A DNA stretch of 64,000 nt, from assembly GCF_900129545.1 (NCBI RefSeq), contig NZ_FQWB01000005.1:62001-126000 (forward strand), given 5' to 3'. The stretch is from Flavobacterium fluvii (GTDB lineage Bacteria; Bacteroidota; Bacteroidia; Flavobacteriales; Flavobacteriaceae). The translations under genes were made by a program, and so were the position numbers. Within the stretch, counting starts at the first letter, position 1. Every line of letters begins with the position of its first letter. A model generated the notes under the pieces. The model was not told the origin of the DNA. It did not search any database and worked only from the letters and a program-made list of their open reading frames with translations. Shown one piece after another: positions 5,424 through 8,602 of this stretch.

Positions 5424-5472
5424 AAAAAAGGAGGGCTTTTTACAGCCCTCCAATTATTGATTTTGATTTGCC
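5424..5472 (-). terminator. Minus-strand intrinsic terminator, third copy of a repeated 3' RNA module
   Basis: On the minus strand the stem GGAGGGC / GCCCTCC with loop TGTAAAAA is followed by a T run, so it can end the PL4 lyase transcript. The hairpin and the preceding AAATCAAAATCAATAATT are nearly identical to the 3' ends of the two RNAs at 7563-7699 and 7895-8050. The matching 5' half is weak here, with at best a degenerate GGTTGTTTTTTGC near 5518-5530, so this looks like a partial or decayed third copy. Confidence 0.75.
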
Positions 5473-5561: not shown

Positions 5562-7421
5562 TTATTTTGAATCATCCAACTCTAAACGTAAATAATCGTA
5601 CAATACACCGAAAGGCCATTTTTTTGCATCAAAAGAGAGTTGAATAGTATTCTTGCCTTTTTGAAGTAATTGGGCATCAAAAACCAAATTTATTTCCACT
5701 TCTTTTCCTCTTATCCCATCACGGTGCATTACTCCCATTTCTGGTAAATGTCCTGTGTTTCCAATTGGTTTACCATTCAAAGTAACATAAATAATTTCTC
5801 CTTTTCTACTACCACAAATGGCCAATCTCAAAGTCCCTTTACCCTTTTTTTGTTCGGCTAAATCAAAATTTACATTCCATTTTGTACCACCTACAACAGT
5901 ATAATCTGCATCAATAACCGTGGGTTGGCAATAATTCCAATCTTTACTCCAATCACTCTTTCCAATGGTAAAATTTACATCATTGGGAAATTCTTTTGGA
6001 TATAACATGTACAGTCCCCATTGCCAGTAATGGTCTCCGTGTTTGAATTCGGAAGCTGAACGATTGGGAATTCCTATTTCCCATAATTGTTTTCCGTATC
6101 GAATGGGTGTCCAAATTTGTGTTCCTATATCCAATTTGCTTCCAGAAGTAATTGTTATGGCTGTTTTTTTAAACTCTCCCAAAATTCCATCGGCAAAAGC
6201 ATATAAATTGTATTTTCCAGCACGAATATTGGGAATTGTAAAAGTTCCATTTGCGTCAGCATGTACCCAAAATTGATAATTTTTCCCTTCATATTGCCAA
6301 TTTGTATCCATTGTCGCTAATCCAACCCAAATATTTGAAATAGCAGTTGTTGGTGTTAAGGAATCATTGATTTTAATTTGACCTTCTAAAGTTCCTCGTT
6401 CTTGTTTTAACGGATATTCTTTATCTTTAACCCAACTAAAAGGCCATTGCAGTTGCTGTTTTTTAGATTCCTCGATGGCGTCATTCCACATTAAATCACT
6501 GTTTGCACCCGAATTGCAATAAAAATAGAAAGGACCAATAAATTTATTCCAATCTTCATTTGGGTTAAATTTTAGTGCAGTACCTCCATAATGCCCATCT
6601 TGCCAATGATTTAGCAAAATAGCTTCTACATGACCCGTGTTGCCTACTTGTGTTGGACCTCCGTTAATGTATTCAAAACTGGGATTTATCACCCAAAAGC
6701 CAATGTTTTTTTGTGTACTGGTCCAACCCCAAGTGGGAGTTTGGGCCAAAATAGCCGAATAATCGTATTTATGCTCTACTTCGCCTTTTCTAATTCCGGT
6801 AGTAAGAAGCTTTGCTTCTTTTACATTTCGTTTTATGCCGTTTTCAACATCAAAAGCTGAAGCCATTTTTTGTTTTCGGTTAGCATCAACAGTATAAAAA
6901 TCAAAAATAGTTGGATTTAATTCAACAATCATTCTTCCTTGTCCTAATTTAAATTTAGGATAATCTGGGCGATGATGGAAGTACGCTGAAAGATAAACTC
7001 CTTTGTCTTGCTTTCCTAACGTAAATCGAAGGTCAATATCCAAGGGAATAGTTGTAGTGTCATTTTCGTATTTGAATTTAAAACTTACTTCTGCACGTTC
7101 ACCATTATTTTCAGAAGGATTGGTGCGAATACTATAGCTCATCTTTTTAGAAAATTGAACTAATTTTTCATCATCATGAAATTCATCGGTAGTGGCTACA
7201 ATATTCCAATTAGCCCTTTGTTTTCCAACCATTTCCAGTCCTTTGTATTTGATTGAAGATATATACGCACTTTTTTTATTGAGTGTTACTTGCACAAAAT
7301 CGTTTGAAAGTATTACGGTAGTACCTTGATCGTTTATTGCTACACCTTTTTGGGAATAACCAATGGATGTAATGAAAATGATAGCTAGAAGGAAGGGGTT
7401 TTTTAGACTTTTTTTTATCAT
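5562..7421 (-). CDS. Rhamnogalacturonan lyase-like protein (polysaccharide lyase family 4)
   Basis: This 619-residue exported protein has a signal peptide in about the first 23 residues (ending GYSQ). The order is an N-terminal beta-sandwich catalytic-like domain (about 30-340, with WNIVATTDEFHDDEK and NHWQDGHYGGT), a fibronectin-type III/carboxypeptidase-regulatory-like domain (about 350-440, GTLEGQIKIND) and a C-terminal carbohydrate-binding jelly-roll domain. That three-domain order matches PL4 rhamnogalacturonan endolyases, which cleave the rhamnose-galacturonate backbone of pectin by beta-elimination. The chosen start (ATG at 7421) gives the signal peptide directly; an upstream in-frame ATG at 7448 would spoil it. 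No SusCD pair or other pectinase is beside it. Confidence 0.75.
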   Translation of the reverse strand: MIKKSLKNPFLLAIIFITSIGYSQKGVAINDQGTTVILSNDFVQVTLNKKSAYISSIKYKGLEMVGKQRANWNIVATTDEFHDDEKLVQFSKKMSYSIRTNPSENNGERAEVSFKFKYENDTTTIPLDIDLRFTLGKQDKGVYLSAYFHHRPDYPKFKLGQGRMIVELNPTIFDFYTVDANRKQKMASAFDVENGIKRNVKEAKLLTTGIRKGEVEHKYDYSAILAQTPTWGWTSTQKNIGFWVINPSFEYINGGPTQVGNTGHVEAILLNHWQDGHYGGTALKFNPNEDWNKFIGPFYFYCNSGANSDLMWNDAIEESKKQQLQWPFSWVKDKEYPLKQERGTLEGQIKINDSLTPTTAISNIWVGLATMDTNWQYEGKNYQFWVHADANGTFTIPNIRAGKYNLYAFADGILGEFKKTAITITSGSKLDIGTQIWTPIRYGKQLWEIGIPNRSASEFKHGDHYWQWGLYMLYPKEFPNDVNFTIGKSDWSKDWNYCQPTVIDADYTVVGGTKWNVNFDLAEQKKGKGTLRLAICGSRKGEIIYVTLNGKPIGNTGHLPEMGVMHRDGIRGKEVEINLVFDAQLLQKGKNTIQLSFDAKKWPFGVLYDYLRLELDDSK

Positions 7422-7562
7422 AAGTAGGTGTTTGGGGACATACAGCATTCCTTAAGATAAACAAATAGGGATTTGGTTTAAGGGTTAATATAGAAAAAGG
7501 CAAAAAGGTTCAACTTTTGACTACAACCAAAATTAAGCCGATCCATTTTACCCAATGATGAC

Positions 7563-7699
7563 AAAAAAAGGAGGGCTTTTTACAGCCCTCCAATTGTTGA
7601 TTTTGATTTACAATTGTTTACATCTACTTACCCTTTAGTTGACTAATAAATAATCTTCCATATTTCGGTACTTATGTAAATAAGTAATGAATCAAAACC
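7563..7699 (-). ncRNA. Candidate structured small RNA, copy A (6S-like)
   Basis: The RNA is read on the minus strand, about 137 nt. A -7 box TACATTTG lies at 7712-7705 with TTTG 15 bases upstream. The 5' end GGTTTTGATT (7699-7690) can pair with AATCAAAA near the 3' end (about 7608-7599), and ATTACTT can pair with AAGTAGAT, closing an extended helix; a terminator (GGAGGGC / GCCCTCC plus seven T) ends it. Copy B has the same design with compensatory changes. The long closed helix with internal loops, the length and the phylum recall 6S RNA, and the 6S-Flavo motif is described for Bacteroidetes; that identity is inferred. No open reading frame is conserved between the copies. Confidence 0.6.
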
Positions 7700-7894
7700 A
7701 TATTCAAATGTACAATAATTTCACTTTCAAATATTTCAAAAACAAACATTTAACACCAAATTAACTCCGTTGTTTTTTCACCATTGAAATTGAATGGAAA
7801 CCTTTTAATTTTAAATTATTTTAGAAATAAATCAGGTCTTCGCAATCAATTTTCAAAACCCTTAATTTACCCAAAAATCAAATCCCTAATTGTC

Positions 7895-8050
7895 AAAAAA
7901 AAAGGAGGACTTTTTACAGTCCTCCAATTTGTACGTTCTGATTTATCATTATCTAACTTATACTTAAATTCGGTATAGCTGACTATTGAGATACTTTTTC
8001 TAATATTAAAATATTTATGATATTATATGCTCAAGTAATTAATCAGAACC
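7895..8050 (-). ncRNA. Candidate structured small RNA, copy B (6S-like)
   Basis: This is the minus-strand homologue of copy A, about 156 nt. The -7 box TAAATTTG is at 8063-8056 with TTTG 15 bases upstream, as in copy A. The 5' arm GGTTCTGATT (8050-8041) pairs with AATCAGAAC (about 7943-7935). Relative to copy A a T-A pair has become C-G. In the terminator stem GGAGGAC / GTCCTCC a G-C pair has become A-T. These paired changes show selection on structure. Conserved unpaired blocks include AGTCA-CTA in the middle and ACAATTGG or ACAAATTGG before the terminator. Confidence 0.6.
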
Positions 8051-8158
8051 ACACCCAAATTTACGATTAATTACAACACAAAACATTGTTTTCAAATACT
8101 TTAACAACGAATTAAGAGTCTTTTGTCTTCTTTCTGTAAAAAAGAAAACAATTCCTGC

Positions 8159-8602
8159 TTATTTCTTGAAATACAGGTTAAATGTCCCGGATTGTCCCGA
8201 ATAGGTTCCGTCAATTTTCAACAACAAATCGGTTGCCGAAAGACTGGCCACATTAAAAGTTCCGTTAAAACTGGTGCCTGAAACAGCAATTGTAATCGTG
8301 TTTCCACTTTGCGTCCAAGTTCCCGTTTTTTCTTCAAAGGCACAAGCCGTTGTATAATTGCCATATTTTGCATTACCTCCAGCATTAAGTTCAATATAAT
8401 CCTTGTTGCAACCATCTTCATTCTTGAAATAATCAGTTGAATATGGGATGGTAAACGCTCCAGAAGTTGCGGTTGATTTGTTGAAATTCCATTTTCCTTC
8501 AATATAATTCATGTCCACAGGACCGCTGTCATCTTTGGTGCAAGAAGCAAAGATTGTCACTAAAATTAATGTCAAAAGAAATAAAGTACCTGTTTTTTTC
8601 AT
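8159..8602 (-). CDS. Lipocalin-like lipoprotein
   Basis: The 147-residue protein starts at the ATG ending at 8602, which begins directly with a type II signal peptide (hydrophobic stretch then TIFASCTKDD, lipidated Cys about residue 20). The mature part has the lipocalin-like pattern of the Bacteroidetes PF13648-type family: YIEGKWNF near the start, NEDGCNKDYIEL in the middle with paired cysteines, then GTWTQSGNTITI. Such proteins are small secreted beta-barrels of unknown ligand. A longer in-frame start at 8692 would put extra hydrophobic residues before the signal and is unlikely. Confidence 0.75.
   Translation of the reverse strand: MKKTGTLFLLTLILVTIFASCTKDDSGPVDMNYIEGKWNFNKSTATSGAFTIPYSTDYFKNEDGCNKDYIELNAGGNAKYGNYTTACAFEEKTGTWTQSGNTITIAVSGTSFNGTFNVASLSATDLLLKIDGTYSGQSGTFNLYFKK

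Follow-up and report, generated by a model that had tools for sequence, protein, structure and literature searches.

Two adjacent units of Flavobacterium fluvii probably encode members of a multicopy structured small RNA family uncatalogued in Rfam 15

Introduction

Multicopy paralogous small RNAs (sRNAs) with canonical promoters and terminators are represented in Bacteroidota by FopS/GibS of Bacteroides (PMC11697453). As given in the main text of that source, FopS RNAs are about 65-70 nucleotides (nt) long, carry a single-stranded seed at the 5' end and a single terminator hairpin, and are bound by RbpB-type RRM-1 proteins; of the 14 copies 9 are intergenic, 4 antisense and 1 derived from a 3' untranslated region, and the word "tandem" does not occur in that main text (PMC11697453). 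The subject of the present analysis is a pair of consecutive units on the minus strand of a 64,000-nt stretch of Flavobacterium fluvii (assembly GCF_900129545.1, contig NZ_FQWB01000005.1, positions 62,001 to 126,000; hereafter the window), named unit 1 and unit 2 in the order in which they are read. FopS is the nearest kind in the phylum to these units, and differs from them in size, fold and arrangement.

Side-by-side paralogous sRNA genes under an OmpR-type response regulator are known from OmrA/OmrB, which pair with messenger RNAs (mRNAs) through Hfq. These form a paralogous pair in enterobacteria, according to the main text of PMC11697453. Within Flavobacterium, Rfp18 of F. psychrophilum is a conserved, folded sRNA whose deletion lowers two metalloprotease mRNAs and which was proposed to pair with mRNAs; the accessible part of the paper mentions no tandem copies (PMC9723704). 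The same part of that paper gives TAnnTTTG as the sigma-A -7 consensus for F. psychrophilum (PMC9723704), and a transcriptome paper on F. columnare reports, in its accessible part, candidate sRNAs without Rfam matches (PMC5395568).

Results

Unit 1 and unit 2 are homologous, both lie on the minus strand, and each carries its own -7 box, closing helix (P1) and intrinsic terminator. Aligned core against core they scored 104, compared with 50.2 ± 6.6 for 2000 dinucleotide shuffles, none of which scored as high (0/2000). Two covariance models were used: R1, from a seed of 7 copies that included unit 1 and not unit 2, and R2, to which 48 of 49 sources contributed 76 matches. Over 456 kilobases (kb) R1 recovered both units, with E-values of 8.2e-13 for unit 1 and 1.2e-4 for unit 2. 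The features of the two units are given below with positions in the window; R1 and R2 values are model scores, and "own genome" is the F. fluvii assembly (G000).

8100-8115, minus strand: upstream direct repeat of unit 1, TTAATTCGTTGTTAAA (TTAA-N6-GTTAA); exact match to the composite promoter pattern (own genome, G000:C11:70056-70115).
8056-8082, minus strand: core promoter of unit 1, with TTTG at 8082-8079, 15 nt, and the -7 box TAAATTTG at 8063-8056; read from the sequence.
7927-8052, minus strand: RNA core of unit 1 (start at about 8052), with P1, a three-way junction, a long P2 and P3; R1 80.6 bits, R2 75.0 bits, fold z-score -2.64.
7895-7925, minus strand: intrinsic terminator of unit 1, a GGAGGACT..AGTCCTCC-T9 hairpin; read from the sequence.
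7749-7765, minus strand: upstream direct repeat of unit 2, GTTAATTTGGTGTTAAA; exact matches to the composite promoter pattern (G000:C11:69705-69765).
7705-7731, minus strand: core promoter of unit 2, with TTTG at 7731-7728, 15 nt, and the -7 box TACATTTG at 7712-7705; read from the sequence.
7592-7701, minus strand: RNA core of unit 2, with the conserved P1 and a rod-shaped middle (a rare variant); R1 39.5 bits, R2 52.6 bits, rod fold in common with L058:5747-5856.
7563-7591, minus strand: intrinsic terminator of unit 2, a GGAGGGCT..AGCCCTCC-T7 hairpin; read from the sequence.

Read on the minus strand, the arms of the closing helix are GGTTCTGATT and AATCAGAAC in unit 1 and GGTTTTGATT and AATCAAAATC in unit 2. 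The fold z-score was -2.64 for either core and -4.85 for unit 2 plus its terminator. The initial annotation had described two tandem homologous units, each with its own -7 box, TTTG 15 nt upstream and terminator, and the alignment bears this out; the paired changes that it listed between the copies (T-A to C-G in a helix, G-C to A-T in the terminator stem) are both present. The common anatomy that it drew for the units stands for the promoter, closing helix and terminator and falls for the middle, which on free folding is a three-way junction in unit 1 and an unbranched rod in unit 2.

R2 was run over 69 stretches and returned 141 matches, corresponding to 140 distinct places in 67 loci. The 141st match, on the minus strand of L072 at the same place as a plus-strand match, was dropped from the counts and kept in the covariation rows of alignment A4. 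This stretch (L072:4110-4225) matched R2 on both strands, with 62.1 and 36.0 bits, and encodes a nearly palindromic RNA. The 67 loci are places matched by the models or by DNA searches, so the array and synteny shares given below describe positives only.

The R2 consensus comprises P1 (10 base pairs (bp), a 1x1 mismatch and 4 bp), a three-way junction, a variable hairpin P2, a conserved hairpin P3, a linker and the terminator. RNAalifold on a first alignment of 16 copies returned P1 and the terminator only; the three-way junction came from single-sequence folds and from the models. Free single-sequence folding, which is independent of the models and was read with a simple script criterion, closed P1 in 138 of 140 copies and gave a multiloop in 135. 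The single-stranded 5' seed and the 65-70 nt length of FopS were not found in these RNAs, the 5' end being paired in P1 in the same 138 of 140 copies. Rods were obtained for three copies, namely unit 2 of the window, L058:5747-5856 (5 differences from unit 2 in 110 nt) and L064:4099-4211.

In alignment A4, 85.3% of cells were paired, versus 31-48% with partners slid by 1-3 columns; the covariation score was 0.356 versus 0.223 ± 0.004 shuffled and changes on both sides were seen in 32 of 39 pairs versus 25.2 shuffled, all figures that lean toward the model to which the alignment was fitted. The sequence of P1 is nearly invariant, with six columns identical in 76/76 rows of alignment A3 and columns 9, 11 and 12 identical in 140/140 copies of the larger set. 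Conserved unpaired bases in A3 are an A at column 161 (74/76) and an A at column 175 (70/75). The apical loop columns of P2 and P3 vary between copies in the same alignment, and by eye the copies diverge most in P2. Open frames across the RNA copies numbered 42/840, a count which the short length makes uninformative on coding either way.

With clusters cut at a distance of 0.45, one group held 111 of the 140 copies and the window units fell into two others; two or more groups were present in 8 of 31 multi-copy loci. Since the window units do not share a cluster, and both of their clusters have members from other genomes, their duplication is taken as old.

The box TAnnTTT(G/A) was located just upstream of 136 of the 140 copies, and the four copies without it were excluded from the repeat and terminator counts. 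The repeat (N)TTAA-N6-GTTAA stood at a fixed place in 109 of the 136 boxed copies (53 of 67 loci) and at 1 of 987 control boxes, these being other TAnnTTTG boxes in the same loci for which a terminal G was required, where the RNA boxes could end in G or A. The distance from repeat to -7 box was exactly 53 nt in 84 of the 109 repeat-bearing copies. Any third half-site in the promoters of the sRNAs is weak, with GTT at position -31 in 21/136.

Terminators were detected by a loose script in 120 of the 135 copies with a box and 60 nt downstream, 111 of them (111/135) with GGAGG..CCTCC; with a stricter script GGAGG was present in 36 of 47 terminators behind copies versus 1 of 28 others. Two to seven copies were found in 31 of 67 loci, never on mixed strands, with a start-to-start spacing of 191-387 nt for 69 of 73 distances. 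Multi-copy here means within one sequence stretch, and in a few loci (L058, L064 and L260 among them) genes lie between the copies. A promoter and terminator for each copy, a conserved fold and several copies, the general marks of multicopy tandem sRNA genes, were all found.

A common genomic site accounts for most of the loci: 44 of the 67 carry both Ham1 and a LOTUS/glutamate-synthase marker, 6 carry Ham1 alone, 4 the other marker alone and 13 neither. The RNA strand is opposite to Ham1 in all Ham1-bearing loci (50/50). In the window, a lipocalin-like gene together with Ham1 borders the array on one side and glutamate synthase with NYN-LOTUS on the other, and a rhamnogalacturonate lyase gene (polysaccharide lyase family 4; 5562-7448, minus strand) lies within it. 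A remnant of the array lies beyond this gene.

5424-5469, minus strand: truncated third copy, reduced to the 3' arm of P1, the linker and the terminator and located downstream of the lyase gene; 98% identity with the 3' end of unit 2 across 46 nt (C11:67424-67469).

As an sRNA-type terminator has been left just 3' of the lyase gene, the lyase transcript may end there. Flavo-1 (RF01705), also a structured RNA, was found in 6 of 15 array loci (L055, L058, L059, L062, L063 and L065) at about 0.9-3.5 kb from the array, but had no match on an array copy or in the window.

The composite pattern TTAA-N6-GTTAA-N36-38-TAnnTTTG was matched four times in the own genome, with no match for the reversed-pattern control. 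The matches precede unit 1, unit 2, an operon of TetR and outer membrane efflux genes (by Pfam) and a histidine kinase/OmpR-family operon on contig C22. A stricter pattern gave 62 matches in 20 genomes versus 1 for the reversed control. In the C22 operon (L299:1225-5548) the histidine kinase gene is followed by that of the OmpR-family regulator (L299:1225-1920; Response_reg + Trans_reg_C); its promoter carries three GTTAA at 11-bp steps, a divergent OMP_b-brl_3 gene adjoins, and the operon looks autoregulated.

The first open reading frame (ORF) behind the pattern encodes a homologue of the C22 kinase in L104, L120, L123 and L294, at 85-100% identity, and a distant homologue in L121, at 34%. 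By genome, the pattern precedes the same kinase gene in G109, G183 and G172, at 85-91% identity, and in G071 a kinase with 34% identity. The sRNAs and the regulator operon have in common a phased direct repeat whose place in the promoter is fixed, as expected of a regulon, with five kinase promoters among the loci examined. In 11 genomes a TetR homologue follows the pattern (in 16 of 20 genomes when judged by likeness of the matched stretch), and an OsmC-like gene does so in G010, G183 and G165 (Pfam for 2 of the 3); further genes behind it are of the Met-zincin family (L117, and L126 by eye) and a rhodanese/metallo-beta-lactamase (L293). The TetR-efflux promoter itself (L127:1501-1561, G000:C17:39901-39961) contains two TTAAACA..TGTTTAA inverted repeats, with TTAA-N6-GTTAA at the same spacing.

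OmpR-family regulators recognise direct repeats with a period of about one helical turn, which fits the 11-bp-phased GTTAA. Judged from the promoter sequences, the chances are even that the C22 response regulator activates the RNAs.

Searched as DNA, the window stretch had matches in 12 of 40 genomes, own genome included, all of one genus; several of them had serial matches and a few had short, chance-like ones. Within the genus R1 matched 43 of 199 genomes and R2 92 of 398, both counts including the own genome. These genome scans scored 9-18 first-look regions per genome under strict filters, and the samples overlap; with so few regions scored, presence and copy numbers are lower bounds and absence is soft. 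On the same terms, a family-level scan with R1 and R2 was positive in 1 of 299 genomes, the own genome, with 235 other genera negative, and an order-level scan with R2 in 5 of 296, all Flavobacterium, with 89 other genera negative.

R2 confirmed the RNA in several named species, among them F. frigoris, F. fryxellicola, F. psychrolimnae, F. soyangense, F. xinjiangense, F. glycines, F. daejeonense and F. pokkalii. Among 80 named loci R2 matched 27, comprising all 20 of Flavobacterium, 6 metagenome-assembled genomes (MAGs) of Flavobacteriaceae, Flavobacteriales or Bacteroidota and 1 Rhizobium MAG; the other 53 were negative. The contig of the Rhizobium sp. MAG carries a clear RNA copy (L164:5563-5661, 70.4 bits) and is perhaps a misplaced Flavobacterium contig. 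F. psychrophilum was not among the 80 of at least 118 matches listed in the named-genome pattern scan. The family may include Rfp18, with which it was compared by published description only.

Rfam 15 at its gathering scores placed no family on the units of the window or on the arrays in 15 related loci. The units belong to an RNA family that is uncatalogued in Rfam 15 and was detected in one genus. A literature search over listings and openly readable passages found no description of tandem three-way-junction RNAs in Flavobacterium.

Discussion

The units are best explained as neighbouring, separately transcribed (predicted) genes of one structured sRNA family of about 135-160 nt that acts in trans, a reading to which a probability of roughly 0.8 is assigned. 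Each gene would consist of a promoter of sigma-A type preceded by a repeat at an 11-bp step, P1, usually a three-way junction, a linker and a GGAGG/CCTCC terminator. Several results weigh against this explanation. The fold of unit 2 has no three-way junction, and no partner protein was found (TROVE and Hfq were looked for in 199 genus genomes). The RNA is not universal in the genus, given 92 positive genomes of 398, a number undercounted by the first-look filter. A looser promoter pattern gave 22 matches in 5 genomes versus 6 for the reversed control, so lone matches outside the conserved groups may be due to chance; and TTAA-N6-GTTAA could be a general promoter-strengthening element.

How such RNAs would act is divided between two readings. 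Recognition of P1 and the junction by an RNA-binding protein, to which slightly less than even odds are given, is somewhat likelier than a pairing seed carried in a loop, since conservation is seen in P1, the junction and a few unpaired bases and the apical loops vary; RRM-1 proteins such as RbpB are candidates for the partner. Antisense-type multicopy sRNAs of the same gene anatomy would base-pair close to mRNA start codons, and their copies would supply both dosage and a range of targets. Pairing is the reported or proposed mode of action of both published Bacteroidota precedents, in the parts of the sources available (PMC11697453, PMC9723704), and the region in which the copies differ most, P2, would agree with diverse targets. 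Against pairing, no long single-stranded stretch is conserved, the conserved positions falling in P1, at the junction and in a short linker, and Hfq was over the cut-off in 0 of the 199 genus genomes, where one weak match below the cut-off had a stop inside; yet FopS works in Bacteroides with another protein. Pairing is held to be possible, if somewhat doubtful. The absence of Hfq over the cut-off also sets the family apart from OmrA/OmrB, which use it. Adjacent paralogous sRNA genes and an OmpR-type regulator, putative in Flavobacterium, are what the two have in common, and no test in the analysis relates them.

The remaining readings concern what kind of element the units are. A 6S-type RNA that binds RNA polymerase had been proposed in the initial annotation, and the closed helix, the size, the free-standing unit and, in unit 2, a rod with internal loops agree with it. 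Typical 6S RNA is a long rod with a central bubble, and 135 of 140 copies fold with a multiloop instead. At gathering score the Rfam 15 scan of the window reported the small SRP RNA only (RF04183; 35002-35107, minus strand, 95.7 bits) and no 6S family, and a permissive scan limited to 7450-8160, with matches accepted up to E 10, gave 9 weak ones, none to a 6S family. The 6S-Flavo RNA (RF01685) of the same organism, free-standing and of similar size, has its match at a separate locus on another contig (G000:C6:49493-49599; L001, L102; 83.2 bits, E 2.5e-14), unlike the units, which have no covariance match to it; at 83.2 bits against a gathering cut-off of 85 a default scan would miss it here. 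The 6S and 6S-Flavo identity was rejected on these three grounds (Rfam, separate locus, multiloop) and is very improbable. A role in cis, as leader or attenuator of the lyase gene (5562-7448), would account for the position of unit 2, which shares the strand of the lyase ORF and lies upstream of it, with its terminator ending about 115 nt away. Unit 1, however, is followed by unit 2, and among 48 array loci the lyase label is confined to the window, the next feature elsewhere being usually another copy or an oppositely oriented gene; this reading was rejected and little credence is left to it. Equally slight credence is given to repeats spread by phage, plasmid or transposon in place of a host regulator. 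The 13 of 67 loci with neither Ham1 nor the LOTUS/glutamate-synthase marker mean that copies exist at other sites, as spreading repeats would; at the one syntenic site, however, orientation is fixed, the units are complete from promoter through RNA to terminator, and the window units, as sole queries, matched none of the 72,556 plasmid and 50,697 phage records searched, on which phage or plasmid origin was rejected. A Y RNA-like (YrlA) partner of a Ro60/TROVE protein would share a closing helix of conserved sequence formed by the two ends. The own genome has no TROVE match, and of the 17 of 199 genus genomes with TROVE only G172 was among the 43 RNA-positive ones (the same 199 genomes being assumed), so this reading too was rejected and is the least probable of all.

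For the preferred explanation, trans-acting sRNAs from neighbouring genes, a mechanism may be proposed as follows. Arrays would grow by tandem duplication, after which the copies diverge. The OmpR-family response regulator of the C22 operon, or a relative, would bind the 11-bp-phased repeats and switch the RNAs on together, the trigger possibly being envelope or surface stress sensed by a two-component system. The RNAs, made in parallel from several genes, would act in trans with the dose set by copy number. The fullest version, a genus-specific three-way-junction RNA whose dose is set by tandem amplification (1 to at least 7 copies per locus), whose stem and junction are read by a protein and which forms the RNA arm of an OmpR-family envelope-stress regulon together with the regulator operon, TetR-efflux and OsmC, is speculative and on present evidence unlikely to hold in every part. 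If true, it would be an independent, Hfq-free counterpart of the OmpR-controlled sRNAs.

In our judgement from literature searching, sRNA regulation in Bacteroidota outside Bacteroides is little mapped. The units described here add an unlisted family to the RNA annotation of Flavobacterium. With defined ends and promoters, a common upstream element suggestive of a two-component system, and copy numbers that form a natural series, they make sRNA regulation and tandem amplification directly testable in this genus.
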